Shown: piece by piece, positions 9,029-20,835 of the stretch
Position numbering within the stretch: position 1 is the first letter of the stretch
Layout of the letters: the number at the start of each line of letters is the position of its first letter
DNA from: a virus
Reading direction: 5' to 3' (one strand)
Length of the DNA stretch: 34,733 nucleotides
Virus record (IMG/VR): IMGVR_UViG_3300017917_003145
Location: 1 to 34,733 of that record
Notes under the pieces: generated by a model
What the model was told of the DNA's origin: nothing
Database searches by the model: none
What the model saw: only the letters and a program-made list of their open reading frames with translations
Translations under genes and position numbers: made by a program

Positions 9029-9898
9029 TCAAGTTCCCCATTCGTTCTTAAACAATGGTACTTGTAATCTATCACTGTATCGTAATCCGTGTTTCATTGC
9101 AAGTAATGCCACCGTTTTGTTATTCAATGAATATACGCTTTCAACACCGCCCACTGGCATCAGATACACAGCACCTTTAAATCCTGCATTGCGATATTGT
9201 TCTGCAGCTTTTAACGCATCTTTTACATCTTCTTCTGTAGACACAACAAACTTGAGATAAGTGTAACCAACTTCTTCGTATTCGCATACAATAGACGGAC
9301 ATATAGCTTCTTCCCACCGTTCGCCGCTGGCTGGCAATTTTGCACTAACACTAAATGTAAGTGCATCACGGCCACGACGTCCTGTTTTATTGTTTAGTGT
9401 CCAATCTAGCAAATAATGTTTGAACTCTTTGGTTAACTGTTGAGTACCATTGGTTTCAAAAGTAATTTCTTTTAACTTTTGCATACGTGGATGATTCAAC
9501 AAGTCAGGATAACTACGCTGCCATCCTAGTAGTGGCTCTCCACCTGTAATAACAAGATGCTCGTCCTTCCACTTACCATGGGGAAGAATTTCCATAATAC
9601 GTTCTACAATTGCATCTGTAGTTAACATAGGGCTTAGATCTTTAAAGTCTGGGTGCCACGATGCATAACTGTCGCAACCTGTGCTTACAAGCGGAAGCTC
9701 TTCGTATTTTGTGTACGGAGTTCTTTGGTGTTGAACGGCAATGTCCTCTGCTTCTGCGCTTAGTTCTCCGCGCGGCATGCCGAAGCCTGCACATTTAAAG
9801 TTACAACCAAATGTACGCAAGAAAACACTAGGAACACCCATGTAGCGACCTTCGCCTTGGATGCTATAAAATAATTCTGCTACTTTTAATTTACTCAT
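9029..9898 (-). CDS. queE: 7-carboxy-7-deazaguanine synthase QueE (phage type), 289 aa
   Basis: This radical-SAM enzyme converts 6-carboxytetrahydropterin to 7-carboxy-7-deazaguanine. The start FYSIQGEGRYMGVPSVFLR is diagnostic. Two cluster cysteines are in GCNFKCAGFG (C32, C36). The expected third cysteine is missing there and probably comes from TGCDSY (C75) after an insertion of about 40 residues. HLVITGGEPLLGWQ (118-122 is TGGEP) is the SAM-binding glycine motif. At 289 residues it is longer than typical bacterial QueE. It works with FolE and QueD in this window toward the base inserted by DpdA. Confidence 0.92.
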   Translation of the reverse strand: MSKLKVAELFYSIQGEGRYMGVPSVFLRTFGCNFKCAGFGMPRGELSAEAEDIAVQHQRTPYTKYEELPLVSTGCDSYASWHPDFKDLSPMLTTDAIVERIMEILPHGKWKDEHLVITGGEPLLGWQRSYPDLLNHPRMQKLKEITFETNGTQQLTKEFKHYLLDWTLNNKTGRRGRDALTFSVSAKLPASGERWEEAICPSIVCEYEEVGYTYLKFVVSTEEDVKDALKAAEQYRNAGFKGAVYLMPVGGVESVYSLNNKTVALLAMKHGLRYSDRLQVPLFKNEWGT

Positions 9899-9901
9899 AA
9901 T

Positions 9902-10051
9902 TTACCAATGTCGAATAATACCTGCTATGATAAACAGGTTTGTTACAATATATACTAACACAATAGCGGTACGGATGCAAGCAATCTTGTTTGCTTCTAC
10001 ATCCGTTGTTCCTGATTTTTCGCCTAGTGCCTTAGCCCACAAGCGCCACAT
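9902..10051 (-). CDS. Small membrane protein, 49 aa
   Basis: The frame starts MWRLWAKALGEKSG at 10051, overlapping the cupin stop by one base (TGATG), and ends HW just before queE. A single hydrophobic span (AIVLVYIVTNLFIIAGII) follows an amphipathic basic head. Position and overlap support translation. The role is unknown. Confidence 0.65.
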   Translation of the reverse strand: MWRLWAKALGEKSGTTDVEANKIACIRTAIVLVYIVTNLFIIAGIIRHW

Positions 10052-10392
10052 CAATGGTTACGCTTTCCGTCGAATACACAATTGAATACAAGATTCATTT
10101 CTCCGGTATTAATAACACGATGGAATGCACCATCTGGAATAAGAACAATATCGCCGGGCTTGACTGTAAAAGGAGCGTCTGTTTCGTTGCCCACAATCAT
10201 TTCTCCGTAACCTTGTACAAAGAAATAAACTTCTTCTTGCCCTGCATGTCTGTGGCCTCTTGTGCTTTGTCCACGATATAATTTGGTAGAACTTAGTACA
10301 AGGTTATTTAGAGTTCGATTATCTTTAAGTAGATAAACTTCGTTGTCTTTGACAACTTCGCCACCTACATCATGTACGTTATATTTGATCAT
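10051..10392 (-). CDS. Cupin-domain protein, 113 aa
   Basis: A single small cupin barrel. Motif 1 is GQSTRGHRHAGQEEVYFFVQG (H47, H49, E53/E54, closing Gly), and motif 2 is GDIVLIPDGAFHRVIN with a second-motif His91. The metal-binding residues are all present. Small cupins bind metals and sugars or act as isomerases and dioxygenases, so the substrate cannot be named. It abuts the SbtA-like permease at 10392 and is in the block between queD and queE; a role with the permease or with the deazaguanine path is inference. Confidence 0.85.
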   Translation of the reverse strand: MIKYNVHDVGGEVVKDNEVYLLKDNRTLNNLVLSSTKLYRGQSTRGHRHAGQEEVYFFVQGYGEMIVGNETDAPFTVKPGDIVLIPDGAFHRVINTGEMNLVFNCVFDGKRNH

Positions 10393-11333
10393 TATTGCAC
10401 CATAGTTGCTAAGTGTGTATAGAGTGGAATTCCGACTAAAATATTAAAAGGAAAAGTAATACCTAGACTCAACCCAAAATACACACTTGGATTGGCTTCG
10501 GGTATAGCATGACGCACAACTGCAGGTACTGCAATGTAACTTGCCGATGCAGCAAGAACCATTAACAATATTGTATTACCGTGGCTTACTCCAAACAATG
10601 TACATAGTCCAAGCGCCGCCAAACTGTGTATCAAAGGAAACACCACAGCATAACCTAACAACATTGGACTTTTATCTCGTAAGTCTGGAATACGTTCTGC
10701 TACCTTTAGACCCATATCTAACAGGAAGAATGCCAGCATGCCCTTAAACAAATCACCAGTGAATGGTTTCATTACTGCCATACCTGCATCTCCAGTTACA
10801 AAGCCAATAACCAATGCAGCTAGTAGTAGTAAATGAGCACCGTCAGTAAAGGATTCGTGCAGTATAGATTTTATACTAACCGTAGAGGTAGTCCTATACC
10901 ATGCAGCCAACGCTACTGCCATGATAATTGCCGGTGATTCCATTAAAGCCATTACTGCTGCCATCACGCCACTAAATTCTATACCAGCATTGCCTAAGAA
11001 TTGAGTGGCAGTAACAAAGGTAACCGCACTAACTGAACCATATGTGGCTGCTACTGCGGCACTATCATACCCATTTAAAAATCTTTTTAAAATTAGATAG
11101 CTTATAGCAGGAATAGCCAATGCCAAAAATAATCCTAATGCAATTACTATGGTGATTTCTGAAGTGAATCCGCTTTTGCTAAGGGCTACTCCGCCCTTGA
11201 TACCCAAAGCCATTAAAAGATATAGGCTTAAAAATTTTGATATTTGTTCTGGGATAGCAAGATTAGATTTTACTAACCCAGCAATGATACCAAATACAAA
11301 AAATAATATAGCTGGGTCTAAAAGGATATTCAT
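10392..11333 (-). CDS. SbtA-like sodium-dependent bicarbonate transporter family permease, 313 aa
   Basis: About ten hydrophobic helices. It begins MNILLDPAILFFVFGIIAG, with characteristic ALGIKGGVALSKSG near residue 45, AATYGSVSAVTFVTATQFL near residue 97 and ALMESPAIIMAVALA, plus a second inverted-repeat-like half with SASYIAVPAVVRHAIPEANP. These match the SbtA/DUF897 permease family, known for sodium-dependent bicarbonate uptake in cyanobacteria. The start at 11333 overlaps the queD stop (ATGA). It could import an anion or a precursor for the neighbouring pathway. The role is not shown by the sequence. Confidence 0.82.
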   Translation of the reverse strand: MNILLDPAILFFVFGIIAGLVKSNLAIPEQISKFLSLYLLMALGIKGGVALSKSGFTSEITIVIALGLFLALAIPAISYLILKRFLNGYDSAAVAATYGSVSAVTFVTATQFLGNAGIEFSGVMAAVMALMESPAIIMAVALAAWYRTTSTVSIKSILHESFTDGAHLLLLAALVIGFVTGDAGMAVMKPFTGDLFKGMLAFFLLDMGLKVAERIPDLRDKSPMLLGYAVVFPLIHSLAALGLCTLFGVSHGNTILLMVLAASASYIAVPAVVRHAIPEANPSVYFGLSLGITFPFNILVGIPLYTHLATMVQ

Positions 11334-11833
11334 GCAAAGAGATCCTCGTTCCATTCGCGATGGCCTTCACGGAAAGCCATGTTAGCTTGTGTTTCGCGAA
11401 CTTCTACTCTATAGCACCAAAGACGATTGTGCTCGCCGAGTCCCCACATGTCTGGAATGTATACACCATTTACGTATTTGTACAGTTGATCTGCTAGGCC
11501 TTCGCAACCTAGTTTGGGCAGCACGACAATTTTAGCCATTTTCTTTTCTTGTAACAATTTAAATGTTTCAAGTTCTGGATCATCTTGTGCTACAATTAGT
11601 GTATGGTCGAATTGATCTTCTAGAATCTTTTTCAATTCTTTCAAGCCACCATAATCAGCAGCCCAATTACGTACATCCAAATCGTCAGTACCAAAATAAA
11701 ACTTCATGCTAAACGAATAGCCATGAATTAGATTGCAATGGCTGTCGGCACGCCACTGACGATAGGCGCAAGGAAATGCGTCATGATATTCTTTTGTACT
11801 TGTGTATTTGTAAACTCTTGTTGGATAAGACAT
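11330..11833 (-). CDS. queD: 6-carboxy-5,6,7,8-tetrahydropterin synthase QueD (divergent phage type), 167 aa
   Basis: It would convert 7,8-dihydroneopterin triphosphate from FolE to 6-carboxytetrahydropterin, the QueE substrate. Motifs in order are FPCAYRQWRADSHCNLIHGY (C22, Y24, H32, C33, H37, Y39), an LDVRNWAADYGGLKELK strand-turn-helix, FDHTLIV (D76, H77), GCEGLADQL (E111) and VEVRET (E147). The T-fold pattern is clear, but two positions that are normally zinc-binding His (AHRL and HGH) are Tyr. An AGGAGA ribosome site precedes the start. QueD and the permease overlap by four bases. Confidence 0.85.
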   Translation of the reverse strand: MSYPTRVYKYTSTKEYHDAFPCAYRQWRADSHCNLIHGYSFSMKFYFGTDDLDVRNWAADYGGLKELKKILEDQFDHTLIVAQDDPELETFKLLQEKKMAKIVVLPKLGCEGLADQLYKYVNGVYIPDMWGLGEHNRLWCYRVEVRETQANMAFREGHREWNEDLFA

Positions 11834-12107: not shown

Positions 12108-12446
12108 TTATGCGATCTCTCGAGCATGACGTTCCATCACTGCTTGTAAGTTATTTGCAGTAATGTGATCAAAAAATTTTATAATAAACATGCTGGCAGC
12201 ACTTGCATCATTACCGTGAAAATGTAGTCTAGTACCGCCCTCACCGTTTTGATAATGATGACATCGTTTGCCTTGGCCGTAACTCACATACCAAATTGAT
12301 CGTTCGCGTCCTCGATGATCGTACCACGAATCTTGATACACTCGGCCTTCTACCAAGCGATACCATTCGATCATGTCATCGGTTAGCTGATCAACATCGA
12401 CCCAAACAGCATAGGTTACAGTACAGCCTGGTGGCAACGCAATCAT
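12108..12446 (-). CDS. Hypothetical protein, 112 aa
   Basis: The start at 12446 (MIALPPGCTVTYAVWVDVD) uses an ATGA overlap with the phosphoribosyltransferase stop; a longer upstream frame is only the shadow of that gene. The protein is alpha/beta with Trp/Tyr-rich strands (RVYQDSWYDHRGRERSIWYV) and a HFHGNDASAASMF segment. It is probably co-translated with the phosphoribosyltransferase. No family is recognised. Confidence 0.65.
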   Translation of the reverse strand: MIALPPGCTVTYAVWVDVDQLTDDMIEWYRLVEGRVYQDSWYDHRGRERSIWYVSYGQGKRCHHYQNGEGGTRLHFHGNDASAASMFIIKFFDHITANNLQAVMERHAREIA

Positions 12447-12994
12447 TGTTCCCACCAAGCTTCCCAGGGAAATACCACCCATACTGGGTTTTCTAATTTG
12501 TTTATAGTGATTCCCGAGTAATCTACATTTGTAAAATTGCTGGCATCGTTGTTGATCACTGTGGCAAATCTCACATTGTGATTCCAAACATGATCCCATG
12601 CAGGGTCGGCTGGCAAGCAACTGGACTGCCAATCATTCACAATCCATTGCAGTGTACTACCCGAATCATTGATATCGTCCACAATCAAGATATTTTTCTT
12701 GTAGGTTGCATCGCTACGTTTAGCTATGCCTTCCTGCATGTCTTTAGGAATATAACCAAATGCATCTTCAGCCATCCACAGATTGCTTTCAGGACCGCTG
12801 CTGCTGTCCCTGAGACTGACATTTAGTGTATGCATGGGCACATCAAGATAATGACTGAGCATGACGGCAGGAGTTAGCCCGCCGCGATTGAGACCCACAA
12901 TGTAATCTGGGTGCCAATTGTCATGGCTCATGTCTCGAATGATTCGATGAACTGCGGCACGAATTTGTCGATCGTTGTAATAGATCTTGCTCAT
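12443..12994 (-). CDS. Purine-type phosphoribosyltransferase, 183 aa
   Basis: The PRPP-binding loop NILIVDDINDSGSTLQWI (D106, D107, S111-G112-S113) is unmistakable for the type I PRTase fold. Upstream YIVGLNRGGLTPAVMLSHYL is the N-terminal strand and loop. It resembles xanthine/hypoxanthine PRTases; the base it uses is not certain. It would salvage a nucleobase to its monophosphate, which could serve nucleotide supply or the modified base pathway nearby. It overlaps neighbours on both sides. Confidence 0.85.
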   Translation of the reverse strand: MSKIYYNDRQIRAAVHRIIRDMSHDNWHPDYIVGLNRGGLTPAVMLSHYLDVPMHTLNVSLRDSSSGPESNLWMAEDAFGYIPKDMQEGIAKRSDATYKKNILIVDDINDSGSTLQWIVNDWQSSCLPADPAWDHVWNHNVRFATVINNDASNFTNVDYSGITINKLENPVWVVFPWEAWWEQ

Positions 12995-13431: not shown

Positions 13432-14172
13432 CTATCTGGGCGCGAATTCTTGTTGTAGTTTAATATTATCAAAGAACTCTTTTTTAGTGGCCGGATCATC
13501 TTTAAAAGAACCTTTTAGCACAGTTGTTTGTGTGAGGCTAGAATGCGCCATAATACCACGATTCTCGCAGCAGCCGTGGGTGGCTTGTATGTATACTGCA
13601 ACATCTTTGCTTCCAGTCGCAAATTCAATTTCTCGAGCAATATCCATGCATAGCTCCTCCTGTAATGTTCCACGGCGAGCACACCACTGGGCAATCCTAG
13701 TATACTTTGAGAGTCCGATAAGTTTGGGACCAGCAATAATACCAATATATGCAACGCCTGTAACAGGTTGGTGATGATGACTGCAAACACTTTTAAGCTC
13801 GCTTCGTACAACCAGCATACCTTCGTATTTCCCGTCGGTATCGTTCGGGAACGCAGTTGCGTTCGGGGTTGGTTCATATCTACCTGCCATTAATTCGTTG
13901 TAGTACATTTTAGCCAAGCGCCTTGCAGTGCCTTGACTATTTGGATCCGTTGCTCTGTCAATAAGAAGAGTGTCCAACACTTGTTCAAATGCCACAGTAG
14001 CTTCGTCAATAAGCCGAGCTTTGTCTGTTTCGCTTACATAGCTGCTGATGTTATCGCCGGCCCAGTATCTTTTGCCATCTTTCTGCATTCTGGCCAAAAT
14101 ATTTTTGTATACCGGACCTTCACTATTGGTCTCAGTTACGTCGTTGCTTTCGTACATCTTGTTATAAACCAT
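13432..14172 (-). CDS. folE: GTP cyclohydrolase I FolE, 246 aa
   Basis: It makes 7,8-dihydroneopterin triphosphate from GTP, the first step to 7-deazaguanines (and to folate). Catalytic zinc ligands are visible in VCSHHHQPVTG (C130, H133) and QATHGCCENRG (C201). KLIGLSKYTRIAQWCARR is the conserved folE core. The ATG at 14172 is chosen for its GGAG site; ATGs nearby would change the N-terminus by only a few residues. It overlaps the aminotransferase gene by 11 bases. The N-terminal roughly 45 residues are extra relative to the core. Confidence 0.93.
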   Translation of the reverse strand: MVYNKMYESNDVTETNSEGPVYKNILARMQKDGKRYWAGDNISSYVSETDKARLIDEATVAFEQVLDTLLIDRATDPNSQGTARRLAKMYYNELMAGRYEPTPNATAFPNDTDGKYEGMLVVRSELKSVCSHHHQPVTGVAYIGIIAGPKLIGLSKYTRIAQWCARRGTLQEELCMDIAREIEFATGSKDVAVYIQATHGCCENRGIMAHSSLTQTTVLKGSFKDDPATKKEFFDNIKLQQEFAPR

Positions 14173-14758
14173 TGTTATCTCCAATAATTGTAATATCTCT
14201 TAGGTCTGGATATTGATGATATTTAGGCGGTTCGTTTACAAAGTATAACTTTTCTAAACCGATCCTTGCATCTTCAATAGTGGGCCTATAATGGTAACCA
14301 ACCTTGAAAACACGTTGTTCTTGCCACGGTTGCATCGCAAGGTCTCGTCCATCATATCTCTGTTGTAGTAAAAAGCCATATGCTTCCTTGTCATCTAATA
14401 GTATAGCACCACCATGACCTATTTGTAAAGGCTTGTTATGACCAAAGCTCAGGCATTGCATTTGTCCGGGTCTATACATTCCTGCTTCTAATCTACGTGC
14501 GCTATCCCAAATATCTGTTCCGTAAAAACGGTATTCTCCGGTCCATTTCTCTGGAACAAGTTCATATTCAATACCTAACTTGTGCATGGTCATTGGAATG
14601 GACAGATAGGTATAAGCAGTGAACTGAACTCGCTTGACCTGTTTATATCGCAAGCACATTTCAATAGCATGTGTGCAACAGTCAGTCATAACAGCATATG
14701 GAGCACCGGTCTTTTTTGCTAGTAGTTGTTCAAATTGTAATATGGTATCAAAGCTCAC
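14162..14758 (-). CDS. Short DegT/DnrJ/EryC1-type aminotransferase, 198 aa
   Basis: PLP-dependent sugar aminotransferase fold. FEQLLAKKTGAPYAVMTDCC (residues 9-28) matches the cofactor-phosphate region. WDSARR has the pyridine-binding Asp (D85), and LSFGHNKPLQIGHGG carries the candidate PLP lysine (K109). The usual family length is 370-400, so the C-terminal domain is absent here; it ends with a normal stop overlapping folE. The GTG at 14758, overlapping the epimerase stop, is chosen because the longer frame is epimerase shadow. It probably acts on a nucleotide-sugar from the adjacent epimerase. Confidence 0.75.
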   Translation of the reverse strand: MSFDTILQFEQLLAKKTGAPYAVMTDCCTHAIEMCLRYKQVKRVQFTAYTYLSIPMTMHKLGIEYELVPEKWTGEYRFYGTDIWDSARRLEAGMYRPGQMQCLSFGHNKPLQIGHGGAILLDDKEAYGFLLQQRYDGRDLAMQPWQEQRVFKVGYHYRPTIEDARIGLEKLYFVNEPPKYHQYPDLRDITIIGDNNGL

Positions 14759-19287: not shown

Positions 19288-20835
19288 TTACCCCTCCAAA
19301 TGAGATTGCATAATATTTTCGGCTTCGTCTTCTGACATTTCTTCTGCGGAGTCTTCGACTTCTTCCACGGTTTCAAAAAGAGCATTAAACATTGTATTAC
19401 TGTTTTTGGTTTTTTTACCCTTGAATCCTCGCGTACCTACAATGTCCATCCAGTATCGATCGTAATGTTCAATAATTGCTTCGGCACTTGCACGATCAGG
19501 TGCAGAAAAAATAGCTTCAACAATGTCTCTAAACTGAGCGTGGTCACCATTGACGTTCCATAACATAGCAGGTCGTTCTCCTGCATCGTATGCCCTGTTT
19601 GCTCTCTGCACTGATTCAATATGTGTCCAAACATTGTGCCCCATCATTAACGCATAACTAAAACTATCCCAACTAGTTTTGCCCTCTTTACCGTTTTTGT
19701 TTAGATCACCGGGTTTGTATATGCAAACATCTTTGATGGCCAAATGTTTACTAATTGGACTGTCCTCGAATACTTCAAATATACCATCTTGTAATACAGC
19801 ATCTCGGAACGATCGAGTATCTGTTGCATATTTTTTGTCGTCAGCACTGGGCTTCATTTTATATGACCATTTGCTATCGTGCTCAAGATCAATCCAATGA
19901 TACATTTGTCCGTTGGCTGTCGCTAAAAAAGGACTCGCACAATCAAAACTAATAGTAAATGCAGGGTTAACATACTTACGGACAGCTCGTTGAATGTCAG
20001 TTAACAATAACGCCCATTCTAGTTTACTTGTACCCAAAAAGTGCATCCAGTCGTGAACACCTTCCTGTAACAAGTTGTCATAACGTAGTGCAACTAGACG
20101 TTTGAGTACAAGATGAATATCGCACATGTTCTGTCCGCCCATTGCCCATCCATCAAAGTGTGTGTCTGGGTATTTGTTAGGATCACAAAACTCTTTCATT
20201 TCTTGATACCATGATTCTGCACTGGTATGATTGTCCCCTTGCAGAACATTCAAGAACTTGGCACCACCGTTGTTTTTGCCTTTACGATGTTGCATAAAGT
20301 ACAGGTTATTGAATTTTGTGGCATCTACAGCTTCTTCTAGTGTAGTAATGCCACAGGCCTTGCTAGCTTTCTTGTCGTGTATGACCCAGGTAGGGATATC
20401 AAGAATCATACCATAATCGGCAATACCATCTAACCATTTTAACACAGCTGAACGCTTCTTTTCAGCTTTTGGGCATCCACTATTAGCTTTCCAGTCGCCC
20501 TCCCAAAGACCTTTGGCAATTTGGAATCCACCCGAGTCACCCAACATAAAAGTACCGGCTTCGCGTTTACGAACCATGTCTTCGCTAGGATCGTCCTTAG
20601 TTAAATCTAGATTTGCGTGTCCGCCCGAGTAGAGACTCCATCTGTACGGGAAGAGTCCTTTTTGGCTATTGAGCCAATTGAATTGCTCCATGTCCTGTAA
20701 TGCCTGTGGCATACGAGCAGGATCAACATAGTCATTGTTAACACGTTGTTTTCCTATAAAAGTTGCGTAGAAACCAGATATAGCAGGCAAGAACACTGCA
20801 TAATCTAGTTGTTTTGCTGTTAAGTTATCCTGCAT
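19288..20835 (-). CDS. dpdA: DpdA-type DNA 7-deazaguanine transglycosylase (TGT superfamily), 515 aa
   Basis: It would swap guanine in DNA for a 7-deazaguanine made by FolE-QueD-QueE. TGT landmarks are GTFMLGDSGGFQIAKG (D100, the base-recognition Asp), KFLNVLQGDNH (near residue 205), HFLGTSKLEWALLL (near residue 265) and TISFDCASPF (D298, the presumed nucleophile), plus HFDGWAMGGQN. At 515 residues it is longer than bacterial TGT (about 375); the C-terminal part is acidic (VEEVEDSAEEMSEDEAENI). It overlaps the sulfotransferase-like gene by 11 bases. Confidence 0.88.
   Translation of the reverse strand: MQDNLTAKQLDYAVFLPAISGFYATFIGKQRVNNDYVDPARMPQALQDMEQFNWLNSQKGLFPYRWSLYSGGHANLDLTKDDPSEDMVRKREAGTFMLGDSGGFQIAKGLWEGDWKANSGCPKAEKKRSAVLKWLDGIADYGMILDIPTWVIHDKKASKACGITTLEEAVDATKFNNLYFMQHRKGKNNGGAKFLNVLQGDNHTSAESWYQEMKEFCDPNKYPDTHFDGWAMGGQNMCDIHLVLKRLVALRYDNLLQEGVHDWMHFLGTSKLEWALLLTDIQRAVRKYVNPAFTISFDCASPFLATANGQMYHWIDLEHDSKWSYKMKPSADDKKYATDTRSFRDAVLQDGIFEVFEDSPISKHLAIKDVCIYKPGDLNKNGKEGKTSWDSFSYALMMGHNVWTHIESVQRANRAYDAGERPAMLWNVNGDHAQFRDIVEAIFSAPDRASAEAIIEHYDRYWMDIVGTRGFKGKKTKNSNTMFNALFETVEEVEDSAEEMSEDEAENIMQSHLEG

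Follow-up and report, generated by a model that had tools for sequence, protein, structure and literature searches.

Two subfamilies of cyanobacterial SbtA, SbtA1 and SbtA2, are described in the available part of PMC9477826. In SbtA of Synechocystis 6803, docked HCO3- is surrounded by Ser114, Tyr140, Ser324 and Ser327 (PMC8352866). SbtA2 confers inorganic carbon uptake on E. coli with a Km of about 150 uM and has a PII-like partner, SbtB2, according to the accessible portion of PMC13249358. An SbtA-like protein from outside the cyanobacteria, that of Labrenzia, did not confer HCO3- uptake on E. coli, as stated in the available section of PMC4275256; this protein may be of another subfamily. 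A different transporter, YhhQ, is known in some phages and shows no correlation with any phage group, as far as the accessible text of PMC6884629 goes. Other, unrelated transporter families were shown to take up preQ0 or preQ1 (PMC11130926, available part). We found no account of a phage-borne SbtA in the literature, as judged on titles and the first lines of abstracts.

Here we describe an Sbt_1 permease encoded in a 34,733-nucleotide stretch of viral DNA, hereafter the window (Table 1). The B-family DNA polymerase of the window is best matched, at 47-51%, by those of the jumbo phages Phosso and Atu_ph07 (470-490 kb). The first 20 kb have a gene order common with region 463-477 kb of a 518,643-base IMG/VR record (G002). 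The phage polymerase and the gene order common with this 518-kb phage record led us to reject a contaminating host contig. The carrier is a giant, or jumbo, freshwater phage, and the permease is one whole gene slotted into its base-modification block.

Table 1 Features of the permease locus (window coordinates unless a locus is named)
Feature	Position	Strand	Evidence
QueE-like radical SAM protein	9029..9898	(-)	phrog_2076 2.6e-51
Membrane-type ORF, 49 aa, frequent between queD and queE in relatives	9902..10051 (about)	(-)	
Small cupin	10051..10392	(-)	PF07883 2.2e-13
Sbt_1 / SbtA-family permease (putative SbtA2-like subfamily), 313 aa	10392..11333	(-)	PF05982; AF2 model; start from ATGA and relatives
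QueD-like 6-pyruvoyl-tetrahydropterin synthase (PTPS) family	11330..11833	(-)	PF01242 1.7e-14; phrog_2389 4.4e-36
Phosphoribosyltransferase-domain protein, same gene run	12443..12994	(-)	PF00156 1.9e-14
GTP cyclohydrolase I (FolE)	13432..14184	(-)	PF01227 3.2e-38; phrog_2197 5.8e-44
TGT-superfamily (candidate DpdA-like) protein with DSGGFQ, unannotated	19288..20835	(-)	Best PDB match of model: archaeosine TGT 1iq8
AhpC-like, class II aldolase, AhpD-like and TerC cassette beside Sbt	L001:943-4680; L093:6737-9485		

The first-pass annotation had placed the permease in a phage 7-deazaguanine block. The matches to FolE, QueD and QueE confirm this description, and a candidate DpdA-like protein with a predicted TGT fold is also encoded in the window. 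The latter protein has no match in Pfam, PHROGs or NCBIfam. We call it DpdA-like because it carries DSGGFQ and because its model, of medium confidence (pLDDT 71.7), is closest to archaeosine tRNA-guanine transglycosylase, with an E value of 1.8e-4 but a TMq of 0.37. The DSGGFQ family is also encoded in Phosso (323249-324703) and PA5oct (222982-224280), and was retrieved at 80 viral loci and in 13 GenBank phage records. As judged from sequences and models, the block is plausibly devoted to DNA modification. No QueC over the cut-off was found in the window fragment, in G002 or in a further record, G003, and the host may supply this enzyme. The QueD-like protein of the window reads HGY, as does the Phosso copy, in place of the HGH of QueD. 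The QueE-like protein has CNFKCAGFG, and a dissimilar QueE, whose CNLDCQFC cluster looks canonical, occupies the same syntenic position in G002 (469207-470079). The QueE PHROG gave twelve matches of radical-SAM type in G002, most of them weak.

The permease sits within an open frame spanning 10392-11354. Its proposed ATG overlaps the queD stop as ATGA, and its phage relatives begin at the same residue. This ATG is thus most likely the start, as the first-pass annotation had it. At the other end, the permease and cupin genes overlap in a TAATG that holds the stop of the one and the start of the other. The gene was said to abut a cupin gene before queE. The contact with the cupin is indeed an overlap, but the cupin itself is not in direct contact with queE because the 49-residue ORF lies between them. 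The ATGA and TAATG junctions suggest that translation of the permease may be coupled to that of the block. The Sbt_1 profile (PF05982) matches over positions 1-307 of 308, with an E value of 1.7e-110 and a score of 369.6 bits, where the gathering threshold is 27. The permease is therefore a full-length member of the Sbt_1 superfamily. Since the Pfam search returned this family only, we rejected an assignment to the YhhQ family (PF02592). NCBIfam and PHROGs gave no match for the permease.

The AlphaFold (AF2) model of the permease (pLDDT 85.8) shows the 5+5 helix fold of SbtA. Its top five PDB chains are all SbtA (TMq 0.79-0.91). VIA-align gave a Z score of 41.1 to SbtA entry 8zor, over 317 residues with an rmsd of 2.4, and 37.9 to a second SbtA entry; the next family follows at 23.8. 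A phmmer search of the PDB retrieved SbtA alone. Full-length match and fold thus confirm the SbtA/DUF897 family proposed from the sequence at first sight. In an alignment to SbtA, Ser114 and Ser324 of the docked HCO3- site (PMC8352866) are kept, as Ser109 and Ser272, and the other two residues are changed, Tyr140 to Met135 and Ser327 to Ala275. The phage signatures are YGSVS and SASYIAVP, versus FGAVS and SSSDISGP in canonical SbtA (SbtA1).

Two acidic residues of the window protein are invariant in a 14-row alignment of the subfamily. The listed canonical rows have Val or Ile at the site of Asp213, and Asp at that of Glu139. The difference at Asp213 may mark a different ion coupling.

Relationships within the family were studied with an Sbt_1 alignment of 120 rows, from which four short rows (L079, L080 and, twice, L095) were left out, and with a tree of 80 of these rows. 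The tree groups the window permease with three other viral copies (L001, L002 and L093) in a single clade (100/100), which lies among Burkholderiales proteins. The viral copy L094 is found elsewhere, on a long branch. The canonical SSSDISGP is carried by 12 of the 120 rows, all cyanobacterial, and these rows have their own side of the tree (100/100). SASYIAVP, present in the phage rows, also occurs in the listed proteobacterial rows and in a second cyanobacterial group. More broadly, the 20-position signature of all four phage copies is the commonest in the alignment (43/120 rows). The phage copies lie on the same tree side as Burkholderiales proteins and cyanobacterial proteins of the second type.

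Several cyanobacterial genomes carry both cyanobacterial groups. A tblastn search with the Brocadia PII-like protein gave a match at 10 of the 11 second-group cyanobacterial loci. Because two groups exist and because of these PII-like matches, the second group is probably SbtA2. By its signature and its position in the tree, the phage permease would then belong to an SbtA2-like subfamily, if the second group is read in this way. Its identification as canonical cyanobacterial SbtA (SbtA1) was rejected on signature, with FGAVS, SSSDISGP, Tyr140 and Ser327 all missing, and on tree position. The same tblastn search gave no match to a PII-like gene in the window, in L001, L002 and L093-L095, or in the G002 and G003 pieces.

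The closest bacterial proteins, 60-65% identical, belong to freshwater Polynucleobacter and relatives, and the phage permease is most likely host-derived. The other three members of the clade all come from metagenome 3300017917. Over the six pairs of the four phage copies, raw pN is 0.13-0.20 and pS, which is saturated, is 0.71-0.78. The low pN beside a saturated pS points to purifying selection on the permease. One viral Sbt_1 copy (L095:8920-9892) is split across two overlapping frames, through a frameshift, a sequencing error or decay.

Comparison with sister phages shows how the gene is inserted. In L279 the order is queD-cupin-queE, and Sbt is missing exactly from ORF to ORF. DNA identity between L279 and the window, 74% and 82% on the two sides, reaches as far as the ATGA, breaks off there and resumes at the cupin ATG. 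The cupin of L279 directly follows queD and is 92% identical to that of the window; in L276 the cupin is also absent. Since the empty site is exact to the ORF, Sbt is single-gene cargo in a variable slot. In relatives, queD and queE either touch or lie up to about 9 kb apart, and the genes found between them include those for a methyltransferase, a radical-SAM protein, an oxidoreductase and MazG. Judged by its contents, the queD-queE interval is a cargo slot with fast turnover.

We then ask whether Sbt accompanies the que genes. From 591 confirmed viral relatives of queD we took the 80 best, whose products are 87-95% identical to the window QueD; in the DNA covered, queE-like genes were found at 61 of these loci, folE at 55 and Sbt at none. 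Sbt was also absent from 80 DpdA-like loci, and Sbt_1 from 26 longer records of relatives. Conversely, queD, queE and folE were found in the flanking DNA of none of the five other viral Sbt_1 loci, and the records of L093, L094 and L095 contain no PTPS. These viral scans were seeded by short patterns, so that relatives were missed, and many locus flanks are short. At 80 bacterial Sbt_1 loci, mostly from Polynucleobacter and related bacteria and hence not independent, no match to queD, queE, folE or yhhQ was seen. G002 holds all these genes scattered: Sbt is found at 135 kb, which is 160 kb away from queD (295 kb) and 330 kb away from queE, the latter lying with folE at 469-472 kb. A link of Sbt to deazaguanine chemistry is not supported, and what Sbt shares with the gene run is its position. 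Because Sbt travels independently of the block, the likeliest view is that it belongs to host metabolism and not, as a new component, to the deazaguanine pathway. The first-pass annotation had reasoned that relatives lying consistently next to carbon-metabolism genes, and never beside que genes, would speak against a role in the pathway. The relatives were indeed never found beside que genes, but they do not lie beside carbon-metabolism genes either.

Other genes recur near Sbt. At the 80 bacterial loci, TerC is found near Sbt in 28 and a LysR-type regulator in 31. In phages L001 and L093, TerC adjoins or is near Sbt, alongside genes for a class II aldolase and for AhpC- and AhpD-like proteins (Table 1). 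In G002, TerC is 26 kb from Sbt. The TerC-Sbt pair is not obligatory, since three viral TerC loci (L270-L272), two of which have the AhpC, AhpD and aldolase genes, have no Sbt. In L002, a 518-kb phage record, the gene after Sbt encodes an alternative oxidase (AOX; L002:11041-11643, 1.8e-80). AOX occurs at two of the 80 bacterial loci. An oxidase with 68-69% identity to that of L002 is encoded 1.2 kb from Sbt in L005 and L034 of Polynucleobacter meluiroseus. Because the TerC and AOX pairs are common to phage and bacterial Sbt loci, they suggest that phages acquired host neighbourhoods from Polynucleobacter-like hosts. No carbon gene was seen beside viral Sbt at any locus. A carbon-fixation context in the phage was rejected, as beta-carbonic anhydrase was found in none of six viral records and no PII-like gene was present.

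We moderately favour the view that the gene is host-derived and auxiliary, and that the permease, Na+-coupled and unregulated, imports bicarbonate, or a small anion much like it, for host carboxylases during phage growth. In this proposal, one lineage of freshwater jumbo phages would carry the gene, and its product would be a symporter of elevator type (5+5 helix), located in the inner membrane of the host. Uptake would be unregulated because the PII-like partner found beside the cyanobacterial relatives is missing. Carbamoyl-phosphate synthetase (pyrimidines), PurK (purines) and acetyl-CoA carboxylase all use HCO3-. Imported HCO3- might feed such carboxylations, on which phage growth draws, and might also contribute to pH balance. 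Auxiliary uptake of carbon or of an anion was one of the two roles initially put forward for this gene. Family, fold, subfamily and independent mobility favour it; the lack of carbon-metabolism neighbours does not. The two docked HCO3- residues of SbtA 6803 that differ in the phage also count against bicarbonate. They are among the reasons to consider that, in heterotrophs and phages, proteins of this subfamily transport some other small anion or a carboxylate, or serve Na+/pH balance, a possibility that we regard as doubtful but real. Asp213 and Glu139, invariant in the subfamily and different in canonical rows, are in line with it. So are the LysR-type regulators and TerC at bacterial loci, with the reservation that the TerC loci, being mostly from Polynucleobacter, are not independent, and the TerC, AhpC-like and AhpD-like genes of L001 and L093. 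Proteins of the ASBT, PIN and NhaP types also belong to the wider fold family, and the Labrenzia protein is reported inactive for HCO3- (PMC4275256, available section). On the other side, the second cyanobacterial group has the same signature and is probably SbtA2, a reported bicarbonate transporter (PMC13249358, accessible portion).

The other role initially put forward was transport of a deazaguanine or pterin intermediate. The permease would import or export a precursor for phage DNA modification, standing in for the YhhQ/QPTR of sister phages. A YhhQ/Vut_1 gene (PF02592, 2.6e-23) does occupy the slot region at 7 of the 80 queD loci, mostly right after queD (for example L244:1023-1649, L248:6340-6978 and L251:10514-11128). 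L248 shares the cupin and the small ORF with the window, in the order queD-cupin-yhhQ-small ORF-queE versus queD-Sbt-cupin-small ORF-queE in the window. A supply of preQ0 from outside could matter, since no QueC passed the cut-off in the window, G002 or G003, and unrelated families have been recruited for preQ0/preQ1 (PMC11130926, available part). Against this stand the lack of que linkage at all five other viral and all 80 bacterial Sbt_1 loci, the distances in G002, and signature residues that are the same as in bacterial relatives. YhhQ itself is not tied to any phage group (PMC6884629, accessible text), and the presence of two transporters in the slot may be coincidental because many other kinds of gene are found there. 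We therefore consider transport of such a precursor highly improbable. That Sbt_1 took the seat of YhhQ as a new kind of nucleobase-precursor transporter, with the queD-queE slot as a "transporter socket", is equally hard to credit. It is also improbable that the gene is a selfish or neutral passenger, acquired from a host by chance and of no benefit to the phage. Its rarity (five other viral loci found), the fast turnover of the slot and the split L095 copy would fit a passenger; four intact, diverged copies with low pN, and coupled start and stop junctions, argue against one.

If importation of bicarbonate is correct, genes for inorganic-carbon uptake are present in phages that infect heterotrophic freshwater bacteria, and bicarbonate supply becomes a possible limiting step in jumbo-phage infection. 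The permease is of a known transporter kind, new in phages: Sbt_1 was found in none of 50,697 phage records, and Foldseek (E <= 0.001) found no structural match to the model in BFVD. The locus is also a clean case of misleading adjacency in a phage pathway block, where the neighbour is interchangeable cargo and the site is empty in sister phages.

Among known systems, YhhQ/QPTR, the preQ0/preQ1 transporter, shares the slot region with the window permease but belongs to an unrelated family. SbtA (Slr1512) of Synechocystis 6803, of SbtA1 type (PDB 7cye, 7egl and 8zor), has the same Pfam family and fold, at about 30% identity. The phage permease differs from it by the lack of FGAVS, SSSDISGP, Tyr140, Ser327, the longer cytosolic loop and the SbtB partner, and the two lie on opposite sides of a 7.8-change branch. 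Cyanobacterial SbtA2-like proteins with a PII-like SbtB2 are closer: they have the same tree side and the same SASYIAVP-type signature, and that of Synechococcus (L083) is 47% identical. Unlike them, the phage members have no adjacent PII-like gene and branch with Burkholderiales. The Sbt_1 proteins of freshwater Burkholderiales, such as Polynucleobacter, have the same signature residues as the phage proteins, some with TerC or AOX neighbours. These bacterial genes are chromosomal, often with a LysR-type regulator, whereas the phage copies form a clade of their own.
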